Source: an uncultured Opitutia bacterium | Lineage (GTDB): Bacteria; Verrucomicrobiota; Verrucomicrobiia; Opitutales; Opitutaceae | DNA: 35,012 nucleotides | Assembly (NCBI GenBank): GCA_903896015.1 | Contig: CAITWF010000087.1 | Coordinates: forward strand, 1 to 35,012 | Direction of reading: 5' to 3' | Part shown: positions 6,932 through 25,301 of the stretch, piece after piece | How positions within the stretch are numbered: the stretch's first letter is position 1 | How the letters are laid out: each line of letters opens with the position of its first letter | Position numbers and translations under genes: made by a program | Notes under the pieces: model-generated | Seen by the model: only the letters and a program-made list of their open reading frames with translations | What the model was told of the DNA's origin: nothing | Database searches by the model: none

Positions 6932-7849
6932 ATGCTGCAACTCCACTCCGTCACCAAGCGCTACGGCGACCTCGTCGCGCTCAACGACGTTTCGCTCGAA
7001 CTCGCGCGTGGCGAATTCTTCGGCCTGCTCGGGCCCAACGGCGCCGGCAAGTCCACGACCATGTCGCTCATCGCGGGCCTGCGCGCTGCCGATTCCGGCA
7101 CGCTTACGCTCGACGGGCAGCCGCTGACCGCCGCCAATTCCGCCTCCCGCCTTTCGCTCGGCCTCGTACCGCAGCACATCGCGCTCTACCCCGAGCTCAA
7201 CGCGGTCGAGAACCTCCGTATCTTCGGCGAACTCTATGGCCTCCGCGGCCCCGACCTGCGCGCGCGCATCGACGCCGCACTCGAAGCCGTGCAGCTCGCC
7301 GATCGCCGCAAGGACCCGGTGAAAAATTTCTCCGGCGGCATGCAGCGCCGCCTCAACCTCGTCGCCGCTCTCCTCCACCGGCCGAAGCTTCTGCTATGCG
7401 ACGAGCCGACCGTCGGCGTCGATCCCCAGTCGCGCAACGCCATCTTCGAATACCTTGAACAGCTCAACCGCGAAGGCCTCACGATCATCTACTCGACGCA
7501 CTACATGGAGGAGGCCACGCGACTCTGCTCGCGCATCGGCATCATCGATCATGGCAAACTCCATGCGCTCGGCACGCTCGATGAGTTGCTGCTGACGTTA
7601 CCATTCGAGGAGGAAGTCCGTTTCCACGCGACGCCCGCCACCGGCCTGCTCGCCTCGCAACTTGGCGCCTACGGCGAACTCACCACGGTCGACGGCACCC
7701 ACCGTTTCCGCCCGCGCGCGGACTTCAAGTTCTCGAAACTCTACGCGCTCGCCGAATCGCTCGAACTGCCTGCTCGCCTCTTCGCGAGCCAGCGCCCGAC
7801 ACTCGAAGCCGTCTTCCTCCACCTCACCGGCCGCTCCCTCCGCGAGTAA
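6932..7849 (+). CDS. ABC-2 type exporter, ATP-binding subunit
   Basis: The 305-residue product is a cytoplasmic nucleotide-binding protein. It has Walker A (GPNGAGKST), a Q-loop region (LVPQHIALYPELNAVENL), the ABC signature (NFSGGMQRR), Walker B with catalytic Glu (LLLCDEPTVGVD) and the switch His (STHYMEEA). This is the DrrA/CcmA-like class that powers ABC-2 exporters. The open frame extends upstream to 6812, but the ATG at 6932 (MLQLHSVTKRYGDL) is the usual family start. The C-terminal 70 residues form the small accessory domain common in this class. The stop codon is 9 nt before the permease gene, so the two form a transporter. The exported substrate could be a drug, lipid or polysaccharide and cannot be told from sequence. 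Confidence 0.93.
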   Translation: MLQLHSVTKRYGDLVALNDVSLELARGEFFGLLGPNGAGKSTTMSLIAGLRAADSGTLTLDGQPLTAANSASRLSLGLVPQHIALYPELNAVENLRIFGELYGLRGPDLRARIDAALEAVQLADRRKDPVKNFSGGMQRRLNLVAALLHRPKLLLCDEPTVGVDPQSRNAIFEYLEQLNREGLTIIYSTHYMEEATRLCSRIGIIDHGKLHALGTLDELLLTLPFEEEVRFHATPATGLLASQLGAYGELTTVDGTHRFRPRADFKFSKLYALAESLELPARLFASQRPTLEAVFLHLTGRSLRE

Positions 7850-7858
7850 CTCACCACC

Positions 7859-9232: not shown

Positions 9233-9270
9233 GGTCGGACCAATCCAGGGGTCCGTCGCGATCCGCAGAT

Positions 9271-9303
9271 TCTCTTTGCGCCTTGACGACTTTGCGTGAA
9301 ATT
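9271..9303. repeat. Half-site of the 9-nt-period intergenic repeat (ACGCAAAG variant)
   Basis: The 83-nt gap between the permease and proA contains CTTTGCGCC, a degenerate unit, and CTTTGCGTG in tandem, with starts 18 nt apart (two 9-nt periods). The opposite strand reads ACGCAAAGT, CGTCAAGGC, GCAAAGA. The unit belongs to the same style as the repeats at 20200, 31763 and 33250, but here I find only one arm, so it may be a decayed copy. Confidence 0.5.
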
Positions 9304-9315
9304 CACCGCTCTTCC

Positions 9316-10590: not shown

Positions 10591-10602
10591 TTCGCGACGC
10601 TT

Positions 10603-11976
10603 CTACGGATTCAGCGCCATCAGAGCCGACGGGAGCTCAGCCCGCAACCCGACGAACCCCGCCAGCTTCATCCCGCGGCGAACTTCGGGTGCTTGCATGA
10701 AATGCCGCCAGACAAAGCCCGACCGCAGATTTTCCGCCATCAGCAGCGTGATCCCGAGATCGATGCCAATCACATCGGGTGACGCCCACCCGGTCTGCGG
10801 ATTAAACGCGTTCACGAAGCCGTAGTGTTTCCAAATTCGATCGCCGCCCGTTGCCCGCATCGCCTGCAGTGATGCAAGGCACTCGCTCGGCGCAAACGGT
10901 AGCGATCCACCCGGCGCTCCCGGCACGAGCGTGCCGTCCGCGCAATTCGGATCGTCTGACGGCCCGCCCCACGCGACGTAGCCGTGCACGCTGTCCGACG
11001 CCGTGAGCCCCCACATCACGCGCGACCAGCGCGCAAAATGCGCGGACATGACGCCGCTCCAGTCGCGTTGCGCGAGCGTGGCCTCCACCGAGTTCTTCCA
11101 ATAATCCGCCCGGCCGTCGCTCCACGCGCGAAAATCGAACCACGCGTGCGTGTATTGGTGCACGAAGAGCGGCGCGCCAGACAGAAACGTGTGCCCACCG
11201 TAGCGCTCGATCGGCCCGCGCTGCCACGCCTGCCATGTGTCGGACGGGAGCGGTTGTGTGGGCGCGCCGATCCCGAGCAGGTAGAGCCCGAGCATTTCCG
11301 CGTAGCTATCCCACCGGGCCGCCAAAAATCCCGTTTCCGGCCGCCAACCGTGCGAGAGTGTGCTTCCGCCATTCAGAGCCCACCGCCAGTTAATCCGCGC
11401 ATAAATGCGATCGGCGAGCGTCGTGACCTCAGGGTCGGCGAGATATTCGCGCGCGAGCAGCACGCCTTGCAGAAACAGCGCCGTATCGATCGTCGAGACT
11501 TCGCACTGCCACTCGCGCTGACCCGTGCGCGCCTCGATGAAATGATAAAACCAGCCGTGCTCCTGTTGAACATGTTCAAGTGCGAAACGCATCGTCTGCT
11601 CGACGCGCTGCCGCGCCTCGCCCGGCCGCAGCCATCCGCGATCGTCGGCGATGCACCAGGCGGTGAGTGCAAATCCCGTCGCCGCGATGCTCGCCGGCCC
11701 GCCGCTCCGCCCGCCGTCCGCCGGCGCACGATCGCGCGCGAGCCCAGACACGGGATCAGTTTGCTCGACGAAATAATTCACCGCGCCCCGCTGGCATTGC
11801 TCCAGCAGCCGCGCATCGGCCGCGCTCACGCGTTGATCGAGCAGCGCCATAGCGGGATGCGCCGACCACCCGGGACTCGCCAGCCATGCCGCACCCAGCA
11901 GAAATTGGAGCAGGCTCCGCACCCACCACCCCTGCGGGTGACCCGGGGATTCCTTCGAACTGTGGGGTAAACGCAT
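10603..11976 (-). CDS. Glucoamylase-like (PF10091) / GH144-type secreted glycosidase
   Basis: The 457-residue protein belongs to the glycoamylase-like family PF10091, which includes GH144 endo-beta-1,2-glucanases. Seen directly are GAVNYFVEQTDPVSGLARDRAP near the N-terminus, a central GHTFLSGAPLFVHQYTHAWFDFR, and near the C-terminus the FNPQTGWASPDVIGIDLGITLLMAENLRSG block. These are typical of this (alpha/alpha)6-barrel. A hydrophobic signal segment (SLLQFLLGAAWLASPGWSA) begins about residue 20. A GTG at 11922 would remove the odd 18-residue leader and give a standard signal peptide, so the true start may be 11922. Family activity on beta-1,2-glucan is established for some members, but the substrate here is inferred. 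It converges with proA, leaving only 12 nt between stop codons. Confidence 0.82.
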   Translation of the reverse strand: MRLPHSSKESPGHPQGWWVRSLLQFLLGAAWLASPGWSAHPAMALLDQRVSAADARLLEQCQRGAVNYFVEQTDPVSGLARDRAPADGGRSGGPASIAATGFALTAWCIADDRGWLRPGEARQRVEQTMRFALEHVQQEHGWFYHFIEARTGQREWQCEVSTIDTALFLQGVLLAREYLADPEVTTLADRIYARINWRWALNGGSTLSHGWRPETGFLAARWDSYAEMLGLYLLGIGAPTQPLPSDTWQAWQRGPIERYGGHTFLSGAPLFVHQYTHAWFDFRAWSDGRADYWKNSVEATLAQRDWSGVMSAHFARWSRVMWGLTASDSVHGYVAWGGPSDDPNCADGTLVPGAPGGSLPFAPSECLASLQAMRATGGDRIWKHYGFVNAFNPQTGWASPDVIGIDLGITLLMAENLRSGFVWRHFMQAPEVRRGMKLAGFVGLRAELPSALMALNP

Positions 11977-12577: not shown

Positions 12578-15500
12578 CTAAATCGACCTCGCCTGGATTT
12601 CTTTCCACACCGCCTCGCCCGTCGCCGGTGAGGCGAGCGGGATTTGGCCGCCGGGTTTCCCGAAATTCGCCACGGCGTCGCGAATCGCTTCGCGCACGGA
12701 AAATGCCAGCATCAGCGGCGGTTCGCCCACGGCTTTGCTGCCGTGAATCGTGTTGGGCTGCGCGGCGTTGGCGAGCAGAGTGACGTTGAACTCCATCGGC
12801 GCGTCTCCGATCGCGGGAATCTGATAGGTACTCGCGCTGTGCGTGAGGAGGCGGCCCTTCGCGTCCCACTTCAATTCCTCGCTCGTGAGCCAGCCCATGC
12901 CCTGCACGAAGCCACCTTCGATCTGGCCGCGATCGATGCCGGGGTTGAGCGAGTCGCCGACGTCGTGCACGATGTCCACGCGGCGCACGCGGCTCATGCC
13001 GGTGTAGCCGTCGACCTCGACCTCCGCAACGGCGGCGCCGCACGCGAAGTAGTGAAACGGTCGGCCCGACGACGTCGTCCAGTCCCATTGGATACCGGGC
13101 GTCTTGTAGTAGCCGGTCGCCGCAAGACTCACGCGATCGAGGTAAGCCTGGTTGCAGATCTTGGCGAACGACACGCTCGCTCCGGAATTCTTCGCGCGCG
13201 CCTCACCGGCGACAAATTCGATTTGCTCCGGCGCCGTGCCGAGCAGCTTCGCGGCCACCGGGGCAAGCCGCTCCCTCAGGGTCACACACGCAGCGGCGAC
13301 CGCCATGCCGTTGAGGTCCGCGCCACTCGAGGCCGCAGTGGGCGACGTGTTGGGAATTTTGTCGGTCGCGGTCGCCATGATGCGAATCGCATCGGCCTTC
13401 AGGCCGAGCTCGCGCATCGCGACACCAAGGATCTTCACGTAAAGCCCCTGCCCCATCTCGGTGCCGCCATGGTTCACCTGCACCGAACCATCGGCATAAA
13501 TCAGCACGTAGGCGCCTGCTTGGTTGTAGTGCGTCAGCGTAAACGAAATGCCGAACTTCAGCGGCGTGATCGCGAGCCCGCGTTTCACGCCTGCGTGGGC
13601 GGCATTCCATTGCGCGATCTCGGTGCGGCGCGCGGCGAAGTTTGCCTGCACCTTCGCCTGCGCCCAAATCGCCTGGAGGCGGTTGTCGCCAATGTCCTCG
13701 CGGTAGTGCGTGCGGTTGGTCTCGCCGGCGCCGTGGTAAAGGTTGCGCTCGCGCACGACCTCGGGTGCGAGCCCGCAGGCGCGGGCCACCCGATCGACGA
13801 TCTCCTCGACCACGAGCATACCCTGCGGTCCGCCGAACCCGCGGAACGCCGTGTGGGAGGAGGTGTTGGTCTTCGCGATCTGTCCGGTGAACCGCACCGC
13901 CGGAATGTAGTAGGCGTTGTCCAAGTGAAAGAGCGCGCGATCGAGAATCGGCTGCGAAAGGTCGAGGGACCAGCCGCCGTCCGAAACAAGCTCGACCTGC
14001 GAGGCCAGCAAACGTCCGTCGCGATCGTGGCCGACGGAAAACTTCGCGTGGAACGGGTGCCGCTTGCCCGTGAGCGCCATGTCGAGATCGCGATCGAGCT
14101 GCACGCGCACAGGCCGGCCCGTCTTCACGGCAGCGAGCGCGACGTAGGCCGCCCAAGCGTTGCCCTGCGTTTCCTTGCCGCCAAAACCGCCGCCCATGCG
14201 CGGCGACTGTACGACGACTTTGTTGCGCGCCACGTGCAACACCTCGGCGACGATCGCCTGGATTTCAGACGGATGCTGCGTCGAGGAATTCACGAGCACG
14301 GCGCCGTCTTCGCCGGCCTCGGCCCAAGCGGCGTGCGTCTCGAGGTAAAAATGCTCCTGCCCACCAAAGAAAAACTCGCCCTCGATCTTTGCCGGCGCCA
14401 CGGCGAGTTCCGCCGCACAGTCGCCGCGCGTGAGCGTGTGCGGCTCCGCATGGTAACTACCCGCCGCGATCGCCGCGGGAATTCCAACGAGCGCCGGCAA
14501 CGGCTCATATTCCACCTCGACGAGCGCCGCCGCCGCGCGGCACGCCTCGACCGACTCGCCCACCACGAGCGCGACGATCTGGCCGTGAAACAATATCTCA
14601 TCGGTGGCGAGCAGCGGCTCGTCGTGGCGCACCGGTCCGCTGTTGTTCTCACCCGGGATATCCTCCGCGAGAAGCACGGCCGCGATACCCGGCATCCGGA
14701 GCGCGACGCCGGCATCGCGCTTTTTGATTTTCGCGCGCGCGTGCGGCGCCATCACCGGCCAAACATCGAGCATCTGCCGCTTCTGTGCCGTGTCGTCGAC
14801 ATAGTGGGCGCGGCCCGTCACGTGGCCGACCGCGCTCTCGTGGCGCAGCTTTTTTGAGGCATCCGCCACCTGCCACGGCGCGCTGACAGCGAAACTCGCC
14901 GGCACATCCGCCACCTCGCTCGCCTCACCGGCGACAAATTTTTCCCAAAGCGACACCACCACGCCGCGCCGGTAGTCCGCACTCCCGCGCACGTCGTCGA
15001 TCGGTTTGAATTCGCCCCGCAAAATTTCTTTAATCACACCGGCTGATTCGCTCAACTTTTTCCCGAGGAGCGCGGCCTCAGCCTGCTTCGCGCGGGTGGG
15101 CATTGCCGCCACGCCACCGAAGGCAATTCGCGCGTGCCGCACGAGGCCGGCGGCATCGACGTCCACGCAAAAAGCGCCCGCCACGATGCTGATGTCGAGT
15201 TCTCGCCGATGGGAGATTTTCTGGAAATCCACGCGCCGCGTCAGCTCCTTCGCCGGCCCGCCGCGCGCCAGCAAAACCTCCTTCATAACTTCGTCCGGCC
15301 GGAGTTGGGTCTGCCGGTAAGCCGTGAAAAATTCCGCCAGCGGCACTGTGCGCTCGCCGAACGTCGAGGCGAGGACCACGCTCGCATCGAGCGTGAGCAG
15401 CACCGGCGCGCTGTCGCCGATCGGCGAGGCGGTCACGAGGTTGCCGCCGAGCGTCGCGCGATTGCGGATTTGCCGCGCCGCGAAGACCCAGAGCATCTTT

Positions 15501-16387
15501 GCGATGGACGGATATTCTCCGGCGAGTGCTTCTTCGACCGCAGTGAGCGTCGTGCCCGCGCCGATCCGCCACTCGGTAGGCGTCGCCACGATGGAAGTTA
15601 ATTCGGCCACACCTTCGACCGAGATGAGCGCCGGAAATTTTTTAAATTTCTTGTTCAGTTCGACCCCAATTTCAGTCGCCCCGGCGATAAGCTTCGCTTC
15701 GGGATGCCGGCTGCGTAGCGCAAAGAGTTCGGCGAGCGACGTCGGCCGAAAGAAATGCTCGCCGCCACCCGCGTAATTCAAAGCCGATGGCACCGCGACT
15801 TCTTCCAGCAACCGCTGCGCAAACGGATCCGTCGCGTCACTTTCCGGAGTGCGCCGCGCCCAGGCGTCGGTCGCGGCGTCGCGGATCGGCCGGTAGCCGG
15901 TGCAGCGGCAGAGGTTGCCGCACAGTTGATTGCAGAGCTGCGGCTGCGTCTTCGCGCCTTCGCGGTAGTAGCCCTCAAACATCGAAACCACGAAGCCCGG
16001 CGTGCAATAGCCGCACTGCGATCCGAAGTGCTCCACCATCGCGGCCTGCACCGGATGGAGCTCGTTTTGATCGTGCCCACTGCACGCGAGTCCCTCGACC
16101 GTCACGACCTCACGCCCAGCGAACATCGGCAGCAGCGCGATGCACGAGTTGATCGCCCGATAGGTCGGATGGCCGGCCGGATTGCGCTCGACGAGCGCGA
16201 CGGAGCACGCACCACAATCGCCCTCCGCACAACCGCACTTGCTGCCGGTGCGGCCGGTGGAGCGCAGCCAGTTTAGCAGTGTCGTCGTCGCGGCGACGCC
16301 GCCCACGCGAACGCGTTCGCCATTCAGCAAAAAATCAAACGACTCGGTTTGCGCCGCGCCGATCGCGACGGCGGAAGTGTTACTCAT
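12578..16387 (-). CDS. xdh: Single-chain xanthine dehydrogenase (2Fe-2S, FAD and molybdopterin domains fused)
   Basis: The 1269-residue enzyme oxidises hypoxanthine and xanthine to urate. Domains in order: a plant-type [2Fe-2S] domain with C53, C58, C61 and C82; a second [2Fe-2S] domain with C124, C127, C159 and C161 (GNLCRCTGY); an FAD domain (about 215-480, IAGATEIGVELNKKF and GGNLVTASPIGDSAPVLL); and the molybdopterin domains from about 525 on (ESAVGHVTGRAHYVDD). Active-site residues matching the bovine enzyme include the Gln of GGQEHFYLET (about 672), the Arg of AFRGFGG (about 847), which supports purine specificity, and the Glu of GEPPLM (about 1219). Many bacteria split this into XdhA and XdhB; here it is one chain, as in eukaryotes. 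It is last in the purine operon, 53 nt after the aminohydrolase gene. AAGGAG lies only 1 nt before the ATG. No xdhC is nearby. Confidence 0.95.
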   Translation of the reverse strand: MSNTSAVAIGAAQTESFDFLLNGERVRVGGVAATTTLLNWLRSTGRTGSKCGCAEGDCGACSVALVERNPAGHPTYRAINSCIALLPMFAGREVVTVEGLACSGHDQNELHPVQAAMVEHFGSQCGYCTPGFVVSMFEGYYREGAKTQPQLCNQLCGNLCRCTGYRPIRDAATDAWARRTPESDATDPFAQRLLEEVAVPSALNYAGGGEHFFRPTSLAELFALRSRHPEAKLIAGATEIGVELNKKFKKFPALISVEGVAELTSIVATPTEWRIGAGTTLTAVEEALAGEYPSIAKMLWVFAARQIRNRATLGGNLVTASPIGDSAPVLLTLDASVVLASTFGERTVPLAEFFTAYRQTQLRPDEVMKEVLLARGGPAKELTRRVDFQKISHRRELDISIVAGAFCVDVDAAGLVRHARIAFGGVAAMPTRAKQAEAALLGKKLSESAGVIKEILRGEFKPIDDVRGSADYRRGVVVSLWEKFVAGEASEVADVPASFAVSAPWQVADASKKLRHESAVGHVTGRAHYVDDTAQKRQMLDVWPVMAPHARAKIKKRDAGVALRMPGIAAVLLAEDIPGENNSGPVRHDEPLLATDEILFHGQIVALVVGESVEACRAAAALVEVEYEPLPALVGIPAAIAAGSYHAEPHTLTRGDCAAELAVAPAKIEGEFFFGGQEHFYLETHAAWAEAGEDGAVLVNSSTQHPSEIQAIVAEVLHVARNKVVVQSPRMGGGFGGKETQGNAWAAYVALAAVKTGRPVRVQLDRDLDMALTGKRHPFHAKFSVGHDRDGRLLASQVELVSDGGWSLDLSQPILDRALFHLDNAYYIPAVRFTGQIAKTNTSSHTAFRGFGGPQGMLVVEEIVDRVARACGLAPEVVRERNLYHGAGETNRTHYREDIGDNRLQAIWAQAKVQANFAARRTEIAQWNAAHAGVKRGLAITPLKFGISFTLTHYNQAGAYVLIYADGSVQVNHGGTEMGQGLYVKILGVAMRELGLKADAIRIMATATDKIPNTSPTAASSGADLNGMAVAAACVTLRERLAPVAAKLLGTAPEQIEFVAGEARAKNSGASVSFAKICNQAYLDRVSLAATGYYKTPGIQWDWTTSSGRPFHYFACGAAVAEVEVDGYTGMSRVRRVDIVHDVGDSLNPGIDRGQIEGGFVQGMGWLTSEELKWDAKGRLLTHSASTYQIPAIGDAPMEFNVTLLANAAQPNTIHGSKAVGEPPLMLAFSVREAIRDAVANFGKPGGQIPLASPATGEAVWKEIQARSI

Positions 16388-16440
16388 GCTCCTTATTTAC
16401 GCCAGGGCCCCTCGCGGGCAACTCAACTCTCGCGCCCGCC

Positions 16441-17184
16441 CTACAGCGCCGCGCGATTCACATCCTTGTAGTAGAGGTAGCTCGCGGGCGACTTGCCCAT
16501 CGCGACAAACCACTGCGGGCAATACGGCGCCATCCAGATCACATCACCGGCCGCGACCGGATACCAGCAGTCTTCAAGGCGGTAAACGCCCTGCCCCGCC
16601 AGCATCAGGAGCCCATGCTCCATCACGTGCGTCTCGACAAACGGCAGCGTCGCGCCCGGCTGATAAGTGAAAATGTTCATCGCCAGATCGAACGCCGGCA
16701 CGTCGGGCAGCAGCACCTGCAGCCGCGCATCCGGATCGCCGAGGAACGGCTGGCCCTCGATCTTTGCCGCATCCCCAATGATCGCCTGCGCCGCGGCCAC
16801 GCCGGTAAGCGGCGCGAATTTTTTCTGAAACAATGTCACGCGCGTGCCCGCTTTTGGTGCGGTGAGCGACCAAGCCTCGCCGGCCGGCGCGAAGAAAAAC
16901 GCGCCCGCTGACACGTTCTGCGTCACGTCGCCGATTGTCAGCAGGCCGCCGCCCGTCGCAAAATAGCCCGCGGTCTCCACGTCATTTGCCGGCAGCGTCG
17001 CGCGCCCGCCCGACTCAAACGTCACCATCACCTGCGCGAACTTCGCGCCCATCGCCCGGTTGATCAAAATAATCGTGGCGGCACCGGTGATGCCGGGGAC
17101 GTTGCTCTTGACGTGACCGTCCGGCGCGATGAGGGCGTGACGCGCGGCGATGCGCGTGCGGGTTTGTCCGTAAGGAATGCTCAT
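16441..17184 (-). CDS. allE: (S)-ureidoglycine aminohydrolase (bicupin, AllE type)
   Basis: The 247-residue bicupin is predicted to release ammonia from (S)-ureidoglycine, giving (S)-ureidoglycolate, directly after allantoate amidohydrolase. The N-terminal ALIAPDGHVKSNVPGITGA is characteristic of the family. The second cupin carries the expected Mn ligands: E, H and H in VETHVMEHG and Q in YCPQWFVA, with the conserved YYKDVNR near the C-terminus. The start is the ATG at 17184, which overlaps the allB stop in an ATGA. An upstream extension to 17337 would run inside allB and does not look like protein. The tight coupling with allB and allC supports the assignment. The product ureidoglycolate has no obvious consuming enzyme in the window. 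Confidence 0.9.
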   Translation of the reverse strand: MSIPYGQTRTRIAARHALIAPDGHVKSNVPGITGAATIILINRAMGAKFAQVMVTFESGGRATLPANDVETAGYFATGGGLLTIGDVTQNVSAGAFFFAPAGEAWSLTAPKAGTRVTLFQKKFAPLTGVAAAQAIIGDAAKIEGQPFLGDPDARLQVLLPDVPAFDLAMNIFTYQPGATLPFVETHVMEHGLLMLAGQGVYRLEDCWYPVAAGDVIWMAPYCPQWFVAMGKSPASYLYYKDVNRAAL

Positions 17185-18590
17185 GAGTTTCCGCGATGCG
17201 GTGCGAGAAATTGACCGGGTTGCGGCAGGTTCGTCAACCGCCCGGCGGCGTAGACCGCACAGCCGCGCACGTAGGTGTCCGTCACCCGCACCTTGCTCTT
17301 CAGGCCGACGTAGGCGCTGATCCGGTGGCGCGTCCACAGGCTCTCCGCTTCGATCTCGTGCTCGGTGCCATATTTAAACAGCGAGAAATCCGCGTCACGC
17401 CCGACAGCAAGTTCGCCCTTCCGCGCATCGATCCGGAAACGGCGCGCGACATTCCGCGCGAGTACCGCCGCCAGGATCGGCAGATCTTTTTCGGCGGTCT
17501 TCGCACACTCGGAAAACATCAGTTCATAGCCGTGCTGCACGCCCGCGATGCCGCCCCACACGGCAAACATGTTCGCGGAATCCTTCATCTCCGGGCGTGA
17601 CGGCGAATGATCGGAGCCGACGGTCTGGATGTTGCCCGCGCGCAACTCCGCCCACAAACCCACGCGCCGTTTCTCGTCGCGCAACGGCGGCGCGCACTTC
17701 GCGATCGCGCCGAGGCGGACGACGTCCTTGTCGTTGAGCAGAAGATAATGCGGGCACGTCTCCGCCGTCACGTCGACACGCAGATCGCGTGCCTCGGTGA
17801 TGAGCGCGATGCCCTCGGGGCTGCTCACGTGCACGATGTGCAACGCGCAGCCCGTCTCGCCCGCGAGTTCTAGCGCCGTGCTAATCGCGGCGAGTTCGAC
17901 CTCGACGGGACGGGATGCGAGATAGGCCTTCGCGTCAGTCTTGCCCTTGGCCTTCTGCTCGGCGGTGAGTTTGGCCGCGAGCGCGTCGTCTTCGGCATGC
18001 ACGGCGACAAGTAAACCGAGTTTCGCCGCGCGCTTCATGCCTTCGCGCAGCGACGCCGCATCGACGTTCAGGAAACTGTCGATGCCACTGTTGCACATGA
18101 ACGCCTTCAGCCCAATCGCGCCCGCGTCGCGCAGGCCAGCGAGCTTGTCGAGATTCGTCGGTGTAAGTCCGCCCCACAGCGCGAAGTCCGTGCACGATTT
18201 CTCCTCGGCCAACGCGCGTTTGATACGGAAATTCGCGGCGTCGAGCACCGGCGGCTCCGAGTTAAGCGGCATGTCGAAAAACATCGTGCCCCCACCCGCC
18301 GCGAGCGCAGCCGAACCGGTCGCGAGACCTTCCCAATCGGCGCGGCCCGGCTCGTTGAAGTGCACGTGCGCGTCGATAATGCCGGGAAAAAGGTAACGGC
18401 CGCGCGCGTCGAGCGTGCTTACGGTCCTCTCGTCGATCTCCGGCGCGATCTGCACGATCCGGCCGCGCAGCACTGCGAGGTCGGCCTCAACAATGCCGGA
18501 CGGCGTAACCAGTTTTCCGCCGCGCACGATGAGATCGAGCGGGTCGGGTTCGACGGGCGCTTTCTTGGCAAAGGACTTGAAGCTTTTCAT
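17181..18590 (-). CDS. allB: Allantoinase
   Basis: The 469-residue cytosolic metallo-amidohydrolase opens the hydantoin ring of allantoin to allantoate. The cyclic amidohydrolase fold shows the metal ligands in order: H75 and H77 in DAHVHFNEPGR, the carboxylated lysine K162 in GLKAFMCNSG, H198 in AVHAEDD, H254 in HIVHVSSPEG and D327 in GSDHSPS. NEPGR after the first His pair and the serine-rich SDHSPS are typical of allantoinase among dihydroorotase-like enzymes. The gene overlaps both neighbours by 4 nt: its ATG overlaps the allC stop, and its TGA overlaps the start of the ureidoglycine aminohydrolase gene. Translation of the three is therefore probably coupled. Dihydropyrimidinase is the main alternative, but the context argues against it. 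Confidence 0.94.
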   Translation of the reverse strand: MKSFKSFAKKAPVEPDPLDLIVRGGKLVTPSGIVEADLAVLRGRIVQIAPEIDERTVSTLDARGRYLFPGIIDAHVHFNEPGRADWEGLATGSAALAAGGGTMFFDMPLNSEPPVLDAANFRIKRALAEEKSCTDFALWGGLTPTNLDKLAGLRDAGAIGLKAFMCNSGIDSFLNVDAASLREGMKRAAKLGLLVAVHAEDDALAAKLTAEQKAKGKTDAKAYLASRPVEVELAAISTALELAGETGCALHIVHVSSPEGIALITEARDLRVDVTAETCPHYLLLNDKDVVRLGAIAKCAPPLRDEKRRVGLWAELRAGNIQTVGSDHSPSRPEMKDSANMFAVWGGIAGVQHGYELMFSECAKTAEKDLPILAAVLARNVARRFRIDARKGELAVGRDADFSLFKYGTEHEIEAESLWTRHRISAYVGLKSKVRVTDTYVRGCAVYAAGRLTNLPQPGQFLAPHRGNS

Positions 18591-19831
18591 GAAGAGGGTT
18601 GGCGGGAAGAACGGGCCAACCGTTCAAGAAAATCGATTATCACGCGCAACGCGACCTCGAGATCGGCCGGCGACGCATACTCGTCCGGATGGTGACTGAG
18701 TCCCTCGCGACAGCGGACAAACAACATCGCCACCGGCGTGAGTTCCGAGATGACGACTCCGTCGTGACCCGCGCCGCTCACAAGTGAGAGTGATTTCCCT
18801 TGGATGGCTTTCACGCTGCGAGCGAGTTGCGCGGTCAGCGCCGGCGAACACGCCACCGCGCCATTCTCCTGCGTGCGCTGCCACGCGCGCGAAACGTTTC
18901 GTCTCGCCGCGATCTGCGTCGCCAGCCGGCCAATAGCCACCAGCGCGCGGCGTCGCACGCGATCGTCTGCATGGCGCACATCGAGCGTGTGCGCGACTTC
19001 GCCAGGAATCACGTTGGCCGCACCCGGCGCGACAGTCATAGCACCGATCGTCGCGACGAGTCCCTTCGTGCGCCGCGCGATCGCTTCGATGCCCATCGCA
19101 AATTCCGCCGCCGCTGCGAGCGCATCGCGGCGCAACGCCATCGGCGTCGTGCCCGCGTGCCCGGCTTTGCCGATCCACGTCAGCTTGAAGCGGCTCTGCC
19201 CCGCGATCGCCGAGACTACGCCAACCGCGAGGTTCTTGTTTTCCAGCACAGGGCCCTGTTCGATGTGAACCTCTATGTAGCCGAGCAGATCGCGCGAGCG
19301 GTGTGCGGCCGCCGGCGGGGAAAATTTTCCGTTTCCAAAATCGCGCAGCACGTCGTGCACGGACACGCCCTTCGCATCATGAAATCGAAGATCAGTCGGG
19401 CGCAATTTTCCCGCGTAGCCTTTGCTACCGAGGTAGGCGCTCGCAAACCGCACGCCTTCTTCTTCGGAAAATCCAAGCACCTCGATGGCGAACGGCAGCA
19501 CGACACCGCGCCGCTTCAATTCACCGAGCGCGACGATCGGGAGCAGCACGCCGAGCGGGCCGTCGAACCGTCCGGCATCGCGCACCGAGTCGAGATGCGA
19601 ACCGAGCAGCAGTGTTTTCGCGCCCGGCGTTTCCCCTTCGAGACGGCCGATGAGACTGCCGACAGCATCTTCGCGCACCGCGAGCCCGGCTGCGCGCATC
19701 CATTGCGCCACTTGTGCATTGGCCCGCCGCATAGACGGCGAAAGAAAAGTCCGCGTCAACTTCCCCGGCTCGTCCGACACGCGGCCGAGTTCGTCGAGCA
19801 TCCGGACGAGTTGCTGGGCGGCGGTCGCCAT
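18587..19831 (-). CDS. allC: Allantoate amidohydrolase (M20 / carbamoylase family)
   Basis: The 414-residue di-metal hydrolase converts allantoate to ureidoglycine, CO2 and ammonia. M20-family signatures are visible: H79 in GSHLDSV, D90 in GRFDGPLGV, the FSEEEGVRF glutamates (about 122-126), HIEQGPVLE, and the final metal His in GAGHDGVVIS. The dimerisation domain lies between them (GKAGHAGTTPMALRRDA). The same family includes N-carbamoyl-amino-acid hydrolases and beta-ureidopropionase. The allantoate assignment rests mainly on its position between uraH and allB. The open frame extends back to 20110 within uraH, but the ATG at 19831 starts the recognisable protein and has a weak purine-rich GAAGGAAG just before it. 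The gap to uraH is 8 nt, and the stop overlaps allB by 4 nt. Confidence 0.92.
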   Translation of the reverse strand: MATAAQQLVRMLDELGRVSDEPGKLTRTFLSPSMRRANAQVAQWMRAAGLAVREDAVGSLIGRLEGETPGAKTLLLGSHLDSVRDAGRFDGPLGVLLPIVALGELKRRGVVLPFAIEVLGFSEEEGVRFASAYLGSKGYAGKLRPTDLRFHDAKGVSVHDVLRDFGNGKFSPPAAAHRSRDLLGYIEVHIEQGPVLENKNLAVGVVSAIAGQSRFKLTWIGKAGHAGTTPMALRRDALAAAAEFAMGIEAIARRTKGLVATIGAMTVAPGAANVIPGEVAHTLDVRHADDRVRRRALVAIGRLATQIAARRNVSRAWQRTQENGAVACSPALTAQLARSVKAIQGKSLSLVSGAGHDGVVISELTPVAMLFVRCREGLSHHPDEYASPADLEVALRVIIDFLERLARSSRQPSS

Positions 19832-19839
19832 CTTCCTTC

Positions 19840-20184
19840 TCAGCTCCCGCGGTAAGTCTGATAGGCCCACGGCGTCACAAGGAGCGGCACGTGATAGGCG
19901 GCCGCCGGATCGGCGATCGCGAAGCGCACGGGCACGCGATCGAGGAACGGGCTGTCGCGATGATGCGTGACGAAATAATCCTTCACGAAGAACAGCAGTT
20001 CGTAGGCGCCCGCCGCCATCTCCGTGCGATCGAGCACCGGCAGATCGGTGCGTCCGTCGACATTGGTCACGACCGCCTTGATGAGCGTGTGCTTGCCTTC
20101 GATTTTCCAAAGTTCGATGCGCATGCCGGCGGCGGGGCGGCCGGTGACGAGATCGAGGACGTGGGTGCTAAGTTTTGCGGACAT
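19840..20184 (-). CDS. uraH: 5-Hydroxyisourate hydrolase (transthyretin-like)
   Basis: The 114-residue product hydrolyses 5-hydroxyisourate, the unstable product of urate oxidation, to OHCU. It has all the hallmarks of the family: the N-terminal LSTHVLDL His, an Arg in NVDGRTD, the YHVPLLVTPWAYQTYRGS ending with its conserved His, and the C-terminal YRGS signature. The start is the ATG at 20184 (MSAKLSTHVLD); eight further in-frame codons upstream are not needed. It follows uraD after a 71-nt gap that is almost entirely a long imperfect inverted repeat. The working enzyme is normally a tetramer. Its presence implies that urate is oxidised in this cell, although no urate oxidase is encoded nearby. 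Confidence 0.95.
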   Translation of the reverse strand: MSAKLSTHVLDLVTGRPAAGMRIELWKIEGKHTLIKAVVTNVDGRTDLPVLDRTEMAAGAYELLFFVKDYFVTHHRDSPFLDRVPVRFAIADPAAAYHVPLLVTPWAYQTYRGS

Positions 20185-20199
20185 AAGAGTGGTTTGACG

Positions 20200-20255
20200 A
20201 CGGATCACGCGGATGTCGCGGATAAAACCACCCGCGCAATCCGTGTAATCCGCGG
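20200..20255. repeat. 9-nt-period inverted repeat between uraD and uraH (CGCGGATTA variant)
   Basis: Left arm (20201-20222) and right arm (20235-20255) are imperfect inverted copies made of CGGAT units in 9-nt steps. On the operon strand the sequence reads CGCGGATTACACGGATTG, continues to GCGCGG, loops, and returns as CCGCGACATCCGCGTGATCC. It fills the intergenic space and would form a stable hairpin in the mRNA. It could terminate, pause or protect the transcript, or be an inert repeat. No U-run follows, so it is not a classical terminator. Confidence 0.7.
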
Positions 20256-20777
20256 TTAATTTGTTTTCAGGAGATCGTTCAGGCGCAACAGGGCGATTTT
20301 TTCGACTTCGCCGAGGGCAGTCTGAAATTCCGCCTCGGACGAATTGCCGAGGCGCGACTGCATCGCCGCGAGAATCGTCGCGCGGTTATTGAGGCGCGCA
20401 CAGATGATGAACGGAAAACCGAAGCGCGCGAGATAGGCGGCGTTGTTAGTTTGAAACACGGCGAGTTCCTCGTCGGTCAACCGAGTGAGTCCGGCGCTGG
20501 CCTGCTCGCGCGTCGATTCCGCTGTCAGCTTGTTTTGCTGCGCGAGCCGGCCCGCGAGATCAGGGTGGGCGCGGATGAGCGCGAGTTGTTTCTTTTGCGA
20601 CTCCGCGCGCATGGTCGCGCACAGCGCGGCGTGGAGATGCGCGGCGTCACGAAAGGGCCGCCATGGCCACGTCTCGTCCGCGACCCACGGCGAGTGCTCG
20701 AAGAGGTGGCCAAGCGCCGAGGTGAACGCGGCGCGATTGAGCGAGTTGATTTCGGCGAGGGACGGCACGCGGCTCAC
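20256..20777 (-). CDS. uraD: OHCU decarboxylase
   Basis: The 173-residue product decarboxylates 2-oxo-4-hydroxy-4-carboxy-5-ureidoimidazoline stereospecifically to S-allantoin. The family signature HPDLAGRLAQ carries the catalytic His. The segment STREQASAGLTRLTDEE corresponds to the conserved SxxEQxxAGL region, and FGFPFIICAR is the third conserved block. Length matches single-domain bacterial enzymes. The start is GTG at 20777, and its GTGA overlaps the stop of aceB by 4 nt, so it is probably translationally coupled to malate synthase. With uraH it forms the two-step chaperoned conversion of 5-hydroxyisourate to S-allantoin. Confidence 0.95.
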   Translation of the reverse strand: MSRVPSLAEINSLNRAAFTSALGHLFEHSPWVADETWPWRPFRDAAHLHAALCATMRAESQKKQLALIRAHPDLAGRLAQQNKLTAESTREQASAGLTRLTDEELAVFQTNNAAYLARFGFPFIICARLNNRATILAAMQSRLGNSSEAEFQTALGEVEKIALLRLNDLLKTN

Positions 20778-22366
20778 GCGAGTTGTTCGTAGGCCGGCAA
20801 CGTGAGAAACTCGGCGAACTTGTCCGCCTTGATCATCTGCATGAAGAGTTCGATCGCCTTCGGGAAATTTCCCCTCGCGAAGCGCTCCGCACCGATCTCA
20901 CCCTGGATTTTCACGAGCTCCTCGGCCATGAATTGATCGTAGAGTGCGCTGTCGATCGTGCGGCCGTCGGCGAGCGAGGCGCCGAAGCGGTGCCACTGCC
21001 AGAGCTGGGCGCGCGAGATTTCGGCGGTCGCAGCGTCTTCCATCAGATTATAGAGCGGCACGCAGCCTAGACCGCCAAGCCAAGCTTCAAGGTATTGCAC
21101 GCCGACCGACAGGTTCAGTCGCACGCCAGCTTCCGTGATGCTGCCGGGCGGCGGCGCAAGCAGATCGGCGGCGGTGACGTTTACGTCGGGACGCTGTTTC
21201 GAAAGCTGATTCGGCGTCGGCATGTGCTTGTCGAACGCCTGCAGCGCGATCGGCACAAGGCCGGGATGCGCGACCCAAGTGCCGTCGTGGCCATCGCTAG
21301 CCTCGCGCTCCTTGTCGGCGAGGACCTTCGCCATCGCGGCCTCGTTGGCGGCCGGATTGTTTTTAATCGGAATCTGCGCAGCCATGCCACCCATCGCGAA
21401 CGCGCCGCGGCGGTGACAGATTTTGATCACGTGCAGCGAATAGGCGCGCATGAACGGCGAGGTCATCGTCACCAGCGCGCGATCGGGGAACATGCCGAGC
21501 TTCGGCAGTTTCTTGATGCGCGAAAAAATATAGTCCCAGCGCCCGCAGTTCAGCCCACTCGCGTGCTCTCGGAGTTCATAGAGCATCTCCTCCGCCTCAA
21601 ACGTCGCGAGGATCGTCTCGATCAGCATCGTGCCCCGCACGCTGCCGTGCGGGACGCCGAGCGTCGCCTCGGCATGCGTGAACACGTCGTTCCAGAGCCG
21701 CGCCTCCAAATGACTCTCCATTTTCGGCAAGTAAAAATACGGGCCGCTGCCGCGCGCGAGAAGTTCCTTGGCATTGTGGAAGAAGTAGACGCCAAAATCG
21801 AACAGCCCACCCGGGACCGGCTTGCCGCCGAACCACACGTGCTTCTCCGGCAGATGCCAGCCACGCGGACGCACGAGGAGTGTCGCGGTCTTTTCGTTCA
21901 GCTTGTAACTTTTCCCACCGGGAATCTCCAACGTGATCGTGCGGCGAATCGCATCGCGCAGATTGATGTGACCATCGAGGAGATTTTCCCAGGTCGGCGC
22001 GGTCGCATCCTCGAAGTCCGCCATGAAGACCTTCGCGCCAGAGTTGAGCGCGTTGATCACCATTTTGCGATCGACCGGCCCGGTGATCTCGGTGCGGCGA
22101 TCCTGAAGATCGGCAGGCGCGGGCGCGACGCGCCAGCTCGGGTCGTTGCGGATGTGCGCAGTCTCGGGGAGAAAATCGGGGAGTTTACCAGCGTCGAGTT
22201 CGCCCTGCCGCGCCACGCGGCGCGCGAGGAGTTCGTCGCGACGCGCGCCGAACTTCTGGAAAATTCCGGCGAGGAAGGCGCACGCCTCGGGCGTGAGCAC
22301 AGTTTGGTGGCGCGGAGCGATCGGTCCGCGAATCTCGAGACCGGAGATGACAGTGGAGGAACTCAT
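20774..22366 (-). CDS. aceB: Malate synthase A, first gene of the purine operon
   Basis: The 530-residue enzyme condenses glyoxylate with acetyl-CoA to give malate. It is the A-type: MADFEDATAPTWENLLDGH and RPRGWHLPEKH are diagnostic, and KNNPAANEAAMAKVLADKEREASDGHDGTWVAHPGL contains the C-terminal signature. There is no isocitrate lyase gene beside it. Instead it is promoter-proximal in an operon of purine-degrading enzymes and overlaps uraD by 4 nt. Inference: it is dedicated to using the glyoxylate that the allantoin pathway releases, rather than, or in addition to, the glyoxylate shunt. The ATG at 22366 has no clear Shine-Dalgarno sequence. It faces guaD across a 130-nt intergenic region. 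Confidence 0.96.
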   Translation of the reverse strand: MSSSTVISGLEIRGPIAPRHQTVLTPEACAFLAGIFQKFGARRDELLARRVARQGELDAGKLPDFLPETAHIRNDPSWRVAPAPADLQDRRTEITGPVDRKMVINALNSGAKVFMADFEDATAPTWENLLDGHINLRDAIRRTITLEIPGGKSYKLNEKTATLLVRPRGWHLPEKHVWFGGKPVPGGLFDFGVYFFHNAKELLARGSGPYFYLPKMESHLEARLWNDVFTHAEATLGVPHGSVRGTMLIETILATFEAEEMLYELREHASGLNCGRWDYIFSRIKKLPKLGMFPDRALVTMTSPFMRAYSLHVIKICHRRGAFAMGGMAAQIPIKNNPAANEAAMAKVLADKEREASDGHDGTWVAHPGLVPIALQAFDKHMPTPNQLSKQRPDVNVTAADLLAPPPGSITEAGVRLNLSVGVQYLEAWLGGLGCVPLYNLMEDAATAEISRAQLWQWHRFGASLADGRTIDSALYDQFMAEELVKIQGEIGAERFARGNFPKAIELFMQMIKADKFAEFLTLPAYEQLA

Positions 22367-22496
22367 GAGTGTGGGTCGTCAGGCTTGCTGACCCCGTCAT
22401 CCGAACGACGAATCACGGCGTCTGCAAGACAGAGGCGTTACGTTCTGCATTGTCACCTGTCAGCACGATAGTTCACCGTAACCCCTCGAAAAATTC
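22367..22496. promoter_or_regulatory. Divergent control region of the purine operon and guaD
   Basis: This 130-nt gap carries the start regions of both transcription units. Two inverted repeats stand out: GTCAGGCTTGCTGAC (5-nt arms) at 22378-22392 and GTCTGCAAGAC (4-nt arms) at 22420-22430. A tandem TGTCACC/TGTCAGC lies at 22451-22464. On the minus strand CTGACA (22463-22458) could be a -35 for aceB, but the expected -10 is poor. Co-regulation of guaD and the operon from this region is inferred. The regulator is not encoded in the window. Confidence 0.4.
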
Positions 22497-22967
22497 ATGA
22501 GCCAGGAAAAATACATGCGCGAGGCCCTGCACCTCGCCGAAATGGGGATGCGGGGCGGCCGCGGCGGCCCGTTTGGCTGCGTCGTCGTGCGCAAAGGTGA
22601 AATCGTCGGCCGCGGCCATAATCGCGTGACCTCGACCAACGATCCCACCGCGCACGCCGAGGTCGTCGCGATTCGCGATGCGTGTGCGAACCTCGAGACG
22701 TTTCAGCTCGACGACTGCGAACTCTACACGAGTTGCGAGCCCTGCCCGATGTGCCTCTCGGCGATTTACTGGGCGCGCATCCCGCAAATTTTCTACGGCA
22801 ACACCCGCACCGACGCCGCCGCCATCGGTTTCGACGACGATTTCATTTACCAGCAGGTGCCGCTGCCGCCGGAACAACGCACCGTGAAGATGCAGCTTTT
22901 CCTGCGCGACGAAGCGCAGGGCGCGTTCAAGGAGTGGGCGGCGAAGACAGACAAGGTGCGGTATTGA
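22497..22967 (+). CDS. guaD: Guanine deaminase (cytidine-deaminase fold)
   Basis: The 156-residue zinc enzyme deaminates guanine to xanthine, which feeds the xanthine dehydrogenase encoded in the opposite operon. It is the small CDA-fold type (as in Bacillus), not the larger amidohydrolase type. Zinc ligands are H53 in TAHAEVVAIR, with the proton-shuttling E55, and C83 and C86 in CEPCPMCL. The AAIGFDDDFIY segment is characteristic of guanine deaminase and separates it from tRNA adenosine deaminase (TadA), the closest relative. The KVRY C-terminus, expected to reach into the active site, is also typical. The gene is divergent from aceB, and the protease gene follows after 49 nt. There is no visible Shine-Dalgarno. 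Confidence 0.93.
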   Translation: MSQEKYMREALHLAEMGMRGGRGGPFGCVVVRKGEIVGRGHNRVTSTNDPTAHAEVVAIRDACANLETFQLDDCELYTSCEPCPMCLSAIYWARIPQIFYGNTRTDAAAIGFDDDFIYQQVPLPPEQRTVKMQLFLRDEAQGAFKEWAAKTDKVRY

Positions 22968-23016: not shown

Positions 23017-24597
23017 ATGCCCCTCCCCCTGCGCTTCCCCAGCGCGCGTCAGGTTGTTTCCCTGAGCGCAGTCCTTATTTTTTCCGCCTCGCTCGCGCTT
23101 GCTTACGAACCGGCGAAGTCCGACGCCGCCGCGTCCCCGGTGCCCGCGGCCGACGCCAAATCCAACGCCGTCGAAAACGCCGTCGTGAAAGTCTTCGCCA
23201 CGATGCGCTACCCCGACGCTTACAAACCGTGGACCAAGCAGGCGCCGACGGAGGCGACTGGGACCGGCGTGATCATCGAAGGCAAACGCATCCTGACCAA
23301 CGCGCACGTCGTCCTCTACGCGAGCCAGGTACAGGTGCAGGCCAACCAGGCGGGAGATAAGATATCCGCGACCGTCGAATCGATCGCGCAGGGCATCGAT
23401 CTCGCCGTGCTCAAGCTCGACGACGAATCGTTCTTCGACACGCGCCCACCACTCCCGCGCGCCGGCACCCTCCCCGACATCAAGGACGCCGTGCTCGCCT
23501 ACGGCTATCCAACGGGCGGCACAAGCCTCTCCATCACGAAGGGCATCGTCTCCCGTATCGAATTTACCGGTTACAACCTCTCGGCCTCCGGCCTCCGCAT
23601 CCAAATCGACGCCGCGATCAATCCCGGGAACAGCGGCGGCCCCGCCGTCGTTGGCGACAAAATGATCGGCCTCGCGTTCAGCCACCTCGGCGGCGCTCAG
23701 AACATCGGCTACATCATCCCCAACGAAGAAATCGAACTCTTCCTCAAGGACGTCGCCGACGGCAAATATGACGGCAAACCCGCGATGTTCGATGGATTGC
23801 AGACGCTCGAAAACCCCGCCCTTCGCACCTATCTCAAGCTCGGTAAAGACGTCGAGGGCATGGTCGTCCATGAAACCTACGGCTCGGACGCCGACTATCC
23901 GCTGAAGGAATGGGACGTAATCACGAAAATCGGTGACACCAAGATCGACGATCAAGGCATGATCAAACTCGGCGCGAATCTCCGCGTGCGTTTCCAATAT
24001 CTTATCCAGCAAATCGCGAAGAACGGCAAAGTGCCGATTACGATCGTGCGCGGCGGCAAGGAACAAGCGATCGATCTGCCGGTGAGCGCCGATCGTCCGC
24101 TGCTCATCCCCGACCTCAAGGGCAGCTATCCGTCGTATTTCGTGTTCGGCCCGCTGGTGTTTTCGACGGTAACGGCGCAGTTCACCGGCGGCTTTTCCGG
24201 CAACGCTGGCGCGCTCAACGCACTCAGCATCCTCGCCAGCCCGCTCAGCACGCGCCGGGGCGACCTCCCGGCGTTTCCCGGCGAGGAACTCGTTGTCGTG
24301 TCCTCGCCGTTCTTCCCGCACAAGCTCGCGAAAGGCTACGGCCAGCCCGCCACGCACGTCGTGAAAACCGTCAACGGCACGACGATCAAAAATCTCGCGC
24401 ATCTCGTCGAGGTGCTGCGCGACGCGAAGGACGAATTCGTCACGCTTGAATTCGAGGGCCGCAGCATGGAAGCGCTCGTATTTAATCGGAAAGACATGAT
24501 TGCCGCGACCGACGAAATCCTCACCGACAACGGCGTCCGCGCGCAGGGGTCCGCCGACACGCTGGCCGTGTGGAACGCTAAAGCTGCGGCGAAATGA
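23017..24597 (+). CDS. Deg/HtrA-type serine protease with DEG9-like PDZ region, secreted
   Basis: The 526-residue protein has a signal peptide (about 1-29, ending LALAY) and a trypsin-like domain with the complete triad H97 (LTNAHVV), D128 (QGIDLAVLKL) and S206 (NPGNSGGPA). A PDZ domain follows (about 275-355, EWDVITKIGDTKIDD). The C-terminal part (about 365-520) contains YPSYFVFGPLVF and VKTVNGTTIKNLAHLVEVL. This arrangement resembles plant DEG9/DEG2-type proteases (PDZ_3 domain, PF17815) rather than E. coli DegP/DegS. It is expected to degrade or process misfolded proteins in the periplasm. The ATG at 23017 is preceded by GGAGG at 23008-23012, one of the few clear ribosome binding sites in the window. 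The next gene, clpP, begins within about 50 nt. Confidence 0.88.
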   Translation: MPLPLRFPSARQVVSLSAVLIFSASLALAYEPAKSDAAASPVPAADAKSNAVENAVVKVFATMRYPDAYKPWTKQAPTEATGTGVIIEGKRILTNAHVVLYASQVQVQANQAGDKISATVESIAQGIDLAVLKLDDESFFDTRPPLPRAGTLPDIKDAVLAYGYPTGGTSLSITKGIVSRIEFTGYNLSASGLRIQIDAAINPGNSGGPAVVGDKMIGLAFSHLGGAQNIGYIIPNEEIELFLKDVADGKYDGKPAMFDGLQTLENPALRTYLKLGKDVEGMVVHETYGSDADYPLKEWDVITKIGDTKIDDQGMIKLGANLRVRFQYLIQQIAKNGKVPITIVRGGKEQAIDLPVSADRPLLIPDLKGSYPSYFVFGPLVFSTVTAQFTGGFSGNAGALNALSILASPLSTRRGDLPAFPGEELVVVSSPFFPHKLAKGYGQPATHVVKTVNGTTIKNLAHLVEVLRDAKDEFVTLEFEGRSMEALVFNRKDMIAATDEILTDNGVRAQGSADTLAVWNAKAAAK

Positions 24598-24644
24598 GCC
24601 GAAGCACTTGCCAAGCGACCGCCGACTCACAACGTTCGCGCTCT

Positions 24645-25301
24645 ATGCATTTCGACAATCTTCAGCCCAGTCTAGCCGCCCCGCTCCCGCGTCTCGACGA
24701 CGATGATGACGACGAGGAGGAGACGCCAGCGCCCGCCGAGAAAAAGGACGGCGGCCCGGTCGCGATGGTCATCCAGAAGAAATTCCTCGCGCAGCGAAAA
24801 ATCTTCCTCTGGGGCGCCGTAACCGACGCCACCGCGAAGGACCTCACGGAAAAACTGCTTTACCTCGAGTCCGACGCGCCCGGAAAACCGATCACGTTTT
24901 ATCTCAATTCTCCCGGCGGCTCGGTCACCGCCGGCATGGCGATCTTCGACACGATGAAACTCATCTCGTCGCCCATCACCGTCGTCGTCACCGGCATGGC
25001 CGCCTCGATGGGCTCCATCCTGCTGTGCGGCGCGGCGAAGGGCCAGCGCTACATCTATCCGCATGCCCGCGTGCTCATCCACCAGCCGCTCATCTCCGGC
25101 CGGATGATCGGTCCGGCGAGCGACATCAACATTCAGGCGAAGGAAATGGAAAAACTCCGCGCCGAGTTGAACCAAATTCTTGCAAGCACCTCCGGCCAGC
25201 CGATCGAAAAAATCGACCGCGACACCGACCGCGACTTCTACCTCAACGCCGAGGAAGCGATCGTCTACGGGCTCGCCGACAAGATCGTCGAGAAGATCTA
25301 A
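24645..25301 (+). CDS. clpP: ClpP-family protease with acidic N-terminal extension
   Basis: The 218-residue product is a ClpP-fold serine protease with catalytic S121 (GMAASMGS), H146 (ARVLIHQPL) and the Asp in KIDRDTDRDF. The N-terminus is unusual. An acidic stretch of six Asp and three Glu (about 18-26) is followed by a proline/lysine linker. The segment between MVI and RKIFLWG has only 7 residues, where E. coli ClpP has about 19 carrying the axial loop. This suggests altered docking with, or independence from, ClpX/ClpA. I chose the ATG at 24645. An ATG at 24594 overlaps the preceding stop in an ATGA and would add 17 residues, and neither has a clear ribosome binding site. No clpX, clpA or tig is adjacent. 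It is probably co-transcribed with the Deg protease. Confidence 0.9.
   Translation: MHFDNLQPSLAAPLPRLDDDDDDEEETPAPAEKKDGGPVAMVIQKKFLAQRKIFLWGAVTDATAKDLTEKLLYLESDAPGKPITFYLNSPGGSVTAGMAIFDTMKLISSPITVVVTGMAASMGSILLCGAAKGQRYIYPHARVLIHQPLISGRMIGPASDINIQAKEMEKLRAELNQILASTSGQPIEKIDRDTDRDFYLNAEEAIVYGLADKIVEKI

Follow-up and report, generated by a model that had tools for sequence, protein, structure and literature searches.

Introduction

Glyoxylate derived from allantoin is handled by more than one route. In Saccharomyces cerevisiae, the allantoin (DAL) cluster contains DAL7, a malate synthase said to dispose of excess glyoxylate (PMC3646786) and assigned to purine degradation (PMC3743077). In E. 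coli and Pseudomonas aeruginosa, the same product is handled by the glycerate route, using glyoxylate carboligase (Gcl) and tartronate semialdehyde reductase (PMC12694930). Here, we describe a window of 35,012 nucleotides, meaning the whole stretch of DNA analyzed (contig CAITWF010000087.1, from an uncultured Opitutia bacterium of the Opitutaceae), in which a malate synthase gene, aceB, heads a seven-gene operon of purine breakdown. This purine-catabolic operon very probably carries its own glyoxylate sink, AceB, which is most likely dedicated to purines rather than an enzyme of the glyoxylate shunt.

As in the DAL cluster, where a malate synthase for allantoin glyoxylate is clustered with allantoinase and later genes, the malate synthase gene of the window is clustered with ureide-degrading genes. 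The yeast system differs in being eukaryotic, in having no urate genes and in using allantoicase (PMC3646786). Besides DAL7, yeast possesses a malate synthase of the shunt and an isocitrate lyase (PMC3743077), neither of which was found in the window genome. Shunt operons of the aceBA type use the same enzyme, malate synthase A, but its partner there is isocitrate lyase, unlike in the window; the aceB of a Paenarthrobacter plasmid, for example, adjoins aceA. The glycerate route differs by its enzymes, no Gcl above cut-off being present here.

Bacterial plasmids offer closer parallels. Seven of 12 matched Deinococcus records were examined. In four of them (D. gobiensis, D. aquaticus, D. aetherius, and Deinococcus sp. 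QL22), a gene annotated as malate synthase immediately precedes those for allantoate amidohydrolase and allantoinase; two of these clusters also have uraD, pucL, and uraH close by, and the other two have pucL/uraH or uraH at the edge. D. grandis is less clear, with aceB three genes ahead of a Zn-dependent hydrolase and allantoinase and a protein of unknown function between, and the remaining two records show aceB but no purine genes in the stretch examined. Unlike the window, the four clear clusters have two malate synthase genes, an IclR regulator, and the classic uricase pucL, and some Deinococcus clusters are accompanied by malic enzyme or by a gcl operon. At L145:15244-16956, L147:15161-16888, and L148:2948-7821 (L, G, and C denote loci, genomes, and contigs), they have a gene for NAD-dependent malic enzyme or, adjoining malate synthase, a set of gcl, hyi, reductase, and glycerate kinase genes. 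Some Deinococcus species thus seem to keep two glyoxylate sinks. On plasmid p3 of Streptomyces angustmyceticus, aceB lies by nucleobase transporters, 8-oxoguanine deaminase, pucL, uraH, and uraD, but on the strand opposite the urate genes and not at the head of one operon.

The link between malate synthase and purine breakdown is therefore an idea already known in yeast and visible in other bacteria, and to call the wiring unusual, as an earlier reading made from the sequence alone did, goes too far in view of DAL7 and of the Deinococcus and Streptomyces clusters. Among the matches listed in our literature search, no title or beginning of an abstract pointed to a purine-linked malate synthase operon in Verrucomicrobia or Opitutaceae, which is not proof of none. 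Among the matches listed for Verrucomicrobia with purine and allantoin (15 of 46), no title pointed to a verrucomicrobial purine operon, and passages from PMC8222616 and PMC12772271 make no mention of purine clusters with a malate synthase. The operon of the Opitutaceae adds a new, strikingly consistent instance of the known idea.

The Operon and Its Enzymes

Family models and the sequence agree with the sequence-only reading on the eight genes at 12578-22967 and on their strands. In operon order, the minus-strand genes are aceB-uraD-uraH-allC-allB-allE-xdh, with guaD divergent on the plus strand:

20774-22366, minus strand: aceB, malate synthase A, head of the operon and proposed glyoxylate sink (TIGR01344, 787 bits, cut-off 594.5; Pfam MS_N, MS_TIM-barrel, MS_C)
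20256-20777, minus strand: uraD, OHCU decarboxylase (TIGR03164, 203 bits, cut-off 96), with a 4-nt overlap with aceB
19840-20184, minus strand: uraH, hydroxyisourate hydrolase (TIGR02962, 119 bits, cut-off 87; scanned as 19840-20208, from a longer upstream start)
18587-19831, minus strand: allC, allantoate amidohydrolase (NF006775, 538 bits, cut-off 479; scanned as 18587-20110, from a longer upstream start)
17181-18590, minus strand: allB, allantoinase (TIGR03178, 519 bits, cut-off 358)
16441-17184, minus strand: allE type, (S)-ureidoglycine aminohydrolase (TIGR03214, 278 bits, cut-off 200; scanned as 16441-17337, from a longer upstream start)
12578-16387, minus strand: xdh, fused single-chain XdhA-XdhB xanthine dehydrogenase (TIGR02965, 984 bits, and TIGR02963, 473 bits, both above cut-off)
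22497-22967, plus strand: guaD, small guanine deaminase, divergent (PF00383; nearest solved relatives 1tiy and 1wkq)
22367-22496: guaD-aceB intergenic region, 130 bp, presumed from the sequence to be the promoter region

The 4-nt overlaps claimed at three of the six junctions were also recovered (aceB/uraD, allC/allB, and allB/allE); the remaining three junctions, in operon order, are gaps of 71, 8, and 53 nt. Seven of the eight proteins are named by Pfam and NCBIfam models, and the xdh product is one fused chain of 1269 residues for which the XdhA and XdhB equivalog models both exceed cut-off. The exception is GuaD: no NCBIfam guanine-deaminase model matched, the top NCBIfam match being TadA, below cut-off, and the gene name rests on the guanine deaminases 1tiy and 1wkq (E 8e-51). 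We infer that the operon genes are co-transcribed and that each enzyme is active.

AceB aligns across nearly its full length with the solved malate synthases 3cux (E 4e-217) and 3cuz (E 1e-177). In an alignment of 12 homologues, R166, E250, D278, and D444 are invariant. We take these to be the catalytic and metal-binding positions, consistent with the 3cuz alignment. With the expected residues present and the TIGR01344 equivalog cut-off exceeded, AceB is an ordinary malate synthase A and probably active.

Pathway Genes Elsewhere in the Genome

The window belongs to a 4.96-Mb assembly, 97.9% complete, and among named genomes the closest relatives of its aceB come from contigs of Opitutus and Opitutae. 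A PF01274 search of this genome returned aceB as its single match and no second malate synthase. Isocitrate lyase was not found: a PF00463 search gave two weak family matches only, one being the methylisocitrate lyase PrpB, which adjoins 2-methylcitrate synthase, and the other a phosphonopyruvate hydrolase. A shunt of the aceBA type was accordingly rejected, since isocitrate lyase was found neither adjoining aceB nor elsewhere in the genome. Gcl above the curated cut-off was found in none of nine genomes (the window genome and eight relatives), each of which has far weaker matches, the best in the window genome being one of 335 bits vs. a cut-off of 711. The search covered the two assimilating routes through malate synthase and Gcl, of which only malate synthase is present, and did not extend to transamination to glycine or to the beta-hydroxyaspartate route.

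The classic uricase, PF01014, is absent from the window genome, but a PuuD-type membrane uricase (PF06181) is present in seven of the nine genomes, including this one, and a missing uricase step was rejected. The gene (G000:C71:9155-10045; L089, L115) is unlinked to the operon and lies near an apparent pyrimidine-nucleoside phosphorylase gene, identified by eye. A missing ureidoglycolate step was likewise rejected. In four relatives (L006, L007, L008, and L038), a second M20 hydrolase gene lies between allE and xdh, and the window genome encodes an unlinked M20 protein, 54% identical to it, on contig C9, with no other purine gene of the query set close by. The relatives' protein exceeds cut-off in one broad NCBIfam family, hydantoinase/carbamoylase, the allantoate-amidohydrolase models coming next, below their cut-offs. 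Similarity, gene position in the relatives, and pathway logic make this hydrolase a probable ureidoglycolate amidohydrolase. A candidate gene is therefore available for each step from guanine to glyoxylate (guaD, xdh, puuD, uraH, uraD, allB, allC, allE, and the C9 M20 gene), that for ureidoglycolate being assigned by similarity and by gene position in relatives only.

Conservation of the aceB-uraD Link

Within the window's family, 150 genomes were covered: PF01274 is matched in 46 and uraD in 41. PF01274 scores above 340 bits in 34 genomes. In 32 of these, aceB has uraD downstream, in the same orientation and no more than 3 kb away; the count is 33 if G116 is included, whose operon is split across two contigs, one ending within aceB and another carrying the aceB tail adjoining uraD. 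G035 was counted as linked on the strength of an incomplete uraD where its contig ends. This neighbor test covered uraD alone, the full operon order being read in the named loci below. With uraD following so regularly, the adjacency is not due to chance, and the link that the sequence-only reading proposed to look for in related genomes is there. Ten other family genomes have only weaker matches resembling malate synthase G (MS-G), none adjoining uraD; the MS-G reading comes from score and frame length, not from an MS-G model. Conversely, eight of the 41 uraD genomes lack an adjoining malate synthase, namely G070, G100, and six with a divergent uraD (118-141 bits). Isocitrate lyase is matched in both halves in two of the 150 genomes, G014 and G132, each time adjoining an aceB of its own; both genomes lack uraD. 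Short matches to the isocitrate lyase family in other family genomes were read as PrpB-like by analogy, identification having covered the two matches of the window genome.

A second set comprised 80 named aceB loci, many on contigs that end near aceB, so that the class with neither partner includes unseen neighbors. In 36 loci, aceB adjoins isocitrate lyase (one 27% match excluded). In eight, all from Verrucomicrobiota, it lies in a purine cluster (L004-L008, L012, L015, and L038), and seven of these follow the gene order of the window as far as the contig extends: L004 over the full operon, L006, L007, L008, and L038 with the M20 gene as one extra gene between allE and xdh, and L005 and L015 up to the contig end. 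The eighth, L012, on a Chthoniobacterales contig, has the order uraD, uraH, allE, a ureidoglycolate-amidohydrolase-like gene, and aceB (3947-11569); its aceB lies about 100 bp after the gene expected to yield glyoxylate. Three further Verrucomicrobiota loci (L010, L011, and L024) show no purine gene within the stretch available. At L008:6459-8087, an adenine deaminase gene (TIGR01178) lies near guaD and would extend the input to adenine.

Origin of the Malate Synthase

In a tree of 85 malate synthases built by a quick method, the ten rows labeled purine require two label changes; one of these rows, L114 (G094), bears the label through its divergent guaD only. The purine rows sit in a supported group of 12, joined by two rows from Verrucomicrobiota that have different neighbors on their short contigs. 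The sister of this group is a set of five Chloroflexota rows, four of which are linked to isocitrate lyase. A shunt-type enzyme thus seems to have been recruited to purine breakdown within Verrucomicrobiota.

Proposed Role and Alternatives

In the proposed pathway, GuaD would convert guanine to xanthine and Xdh xanthine to urate. The unlinked PuuD-type membrane uricase would act on urate, after which UraH and UraD would yield allantoin. AllB would then form allantoate, AllC ureidoglycine, and AllE ureidoglycolate, from which the unlinked M20 hydrolase would release glyoxylate. Finally, AceB would condense glyoxylate with acetyl-CoA to malate, clearing a toxic aldehyde and replenishing the tricarboxylic acid (TCA) cycle with a C4 acid. 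Malate synthase uses one acetyl-CoA per glyoxylate; alongside another carbon source the reaction amounts to anaplerosis and detoxification, and without one it merely feeds the cycle that oxidizes glyoxylate. Because acetyl-CoA is consumed, a net carbon gain would be expected only if another substrate supplies it. Within these terms, purine carbon would flow into malate. The tie between malate synthase and purine breakdown put forward by the sequence-only reading has gained support from the sole PF01274 gene, from the lack of isocitrate lyase and of Gcl above cut-off, and from the conserved link to uraD.

Several points weigh against a purine-dedicated sink. AceB requires acetyl-CoA, which purine breakdown does not make, and for this reason the malate synthase route has been argued to be unsuitable for allantoin glyoxylate, the Gcl route being shown in Pseudomonas aeruginosa (PMC12694930); in Arthrobacter Rue61a, glyoxylate is thought to leave mainly via the glycerate route (PMC3534580). 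Our search left out other sources of glyoxylate (glycolate oxidase) as well as the two further sinks named above, in an assembly of 123 contigs that is 97.9% complete. The uricase and ureidoglycolate genes are unlinked to the operon in this genome, no regulator was noticed, and no conserved operator was seen in seven aligned guaD-aceB gaps. In the family, G094 (72% complete) has guaD divergent from aceB and other genes downstream but no uraD. G070 and G100 hold the operon with guaD divergent and without aceB (L134, G070:C19; L129, G100:C24), so that the operon is able to work without it; G070 encodes a further malate synthase on a separate contig, and no PF01274 match was found in G100.

A narrower form of our reading is that the operon serves nitrogen alone, AceB detoxifying glyoxylate and the malate being nutritionally irrelevant. 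We regard this as a serious possibility, though at somewhat less than even chances. Yeast DAL7 is described as lowering the toxicity of allantoin catabolism (PMC3646786), acetyl-CoA is not co-produced (PMC12694930), and the window also holds carbohydrate genes of the GH88 and glucoamylase-type families, which would fit a sugar-fed organism mostly needing purine nitrogen. Detoxification and anaplerosis are, however, the same reaction, inseparable by sequence, and there is no Gcl above cut-off as an alternative sink.

AceB could instead mainly draw glyoxylate from another source, for example glycolate, co-expression with purine genes being secondary. Glycolate is a possible source; yet aceB and uraD overlap by 4 nt and uraD is attached in 33 of the 34 family genomes with such an aceB, which leaves this explanation improbable. 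That AceB is a general shunt enzyme lying beside purine genes by accident is the least credible explanation: it is a canonical malate synthase A that, given its Chloroflexota sisters, may descend from shunt-type enzymes, but this explanation is largely refuted by the failure to find isocitrate lyase in the window genome, and with 33 uraD-linked aceB genes vs. two genomes with isocitrate lyase matched in both halves, the adjacency is too frequent for chance.

DUF6986 in Other Verrucomicrobiota

A wider comparison covered 387 genomes of the phylum Verrucomicrobiota. Weak PF01274 matches near uraD occur in this set, and scans of three such proteins identified them as DUF6986 (PF22484). There were 13 DUF6986 matches, ten above cut-off; three of these ten, short pieces (26-30 bits, in f28 genomes without a place among the uraD genomes), were excluded from the strong class. 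Strong matches (at least 585 bits) occur in seven of the 387 genomes, all seven among the 29 that have uraD:

L106:6804-8249, DUF6986 gene
L107:6774-8234, DUF6986 gene
L108:11714-13054, DUF6986 gene
L109:7427-8779, DUF6986 gene
L116:6940-8370, DUF6986 gene
L117:3119-4507, DUF6986 gene
L118:8083-9435, DUF6986 gene

Six of the seven lie within the uraD cluster, in purine clusters of other Verrucomicrobiota families, and four directly adjoin uraD; in G317, the two are on separate contigs. An allantoicase-like gene is present in the DUF6986 cluster of L106, L107, L108, L109, and L118. As for malate synthase A, it adjoins uraD in eight of the 29 genomes, and 14 have neither gene there. The two never share a cluster (0/29), in samples too small and related to test exclusion. 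G307 has both DUF6986 and aceB, the latter adjoining isocitrate lyase.

Beyond the phylum, DUF6986 occurs in five plasmid records. That of Tsukamurella is inside a purine cluster, adjoining allantoicase/AllE; in Paenarthrobacter it adjoins a nucleobase transporter and in Gordonia urease genes, and the other two records have no annotation at that place. In viral contigs, 77 pattern matches included no relatives. No paper naming DUF6986 was returned by our literature search.

In sequence, DUF6986 resembles the malate synthase/malyl-CoA lyase superfamily only weakly. Searches with hmmsearch gave weak matches to malyl-CoA lyase 5ugr (E 0.008) and malate synthase G (E 0.2 to 0.6), the same searches also listing unrelated chains at similar values (E 0.17 to 0.57), and hhalign against malate synthase A was also weak (E 7.5e-4, probability 25%; with 12 sequences, E 3e-4, probability 39%). 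K187, E222, and D256 are kept in all 12 sequences, and in weak alignments the invariant Glu and Asp correspond to the metal-binding residues of malate synthase and malyl-CoA lyase. Near the C-terminus, an acidic pair (DD or DE, the first acid kept in 12/12) precedes [AP]-A-[TS], which by eye resembles the EDAAT of malate synthase.

On balance, we lean slightly toward DUF6986 being a purine-pathway enzyme at the glyoxylate end, taking in the purine clusters of other Verrucomicrobiota the place that malate synthase has in Opitutaceae, and acting either as a second, so far unrecognized malate synthase or as a ureidoglycolate lyase. The latter activity would fit because clusters with allantoicase need such an enzyme.

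Intergenic Signals and Neighboring Genes

Alignment of the seven guaD-aceB regions gave no conserved operator motif, and a promoter scan gave 1 match vs. 1.8 expected, with no promoter-like match in this gap. Terminator-like sites numbered 17, vs. 11.4 expected (sd 3.6). In the uraD-uraH gap, positions 20238-20255 carry CCGCGGATTACACGGATT together with what by eye looks like a partial mirror image of it. This sequence has one match in the window when up to two mismatches are allowed and none in shuffles; it may be a dispersed genome repeat. After guaD, positions 23017-25301 encode an HtrA-like protease and ClpP. ClpP is also close to guaD in L004-L008, L015, and L038, with HtrA in between in L004, L005, and L015.

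Concluding Remarks

The comparison brought to light DUF6986, an uncharacterized family whose proposed place in purine degradation can be tested. The operon itself bears on the published argument against malate synthase as an outlet for allantoin-derived glyoxylate (PMC12694930). It offers a clean bacterial case of a malate synthase removed from the glyoxylate shunt and bound to purine breakdown. Among the family genomes sampled, malate synthase A is found almost exclusively next to uraD, and most lack the shunt partner; labeling aceB as "glyoxylate cycle" would be a misleading annotation there.

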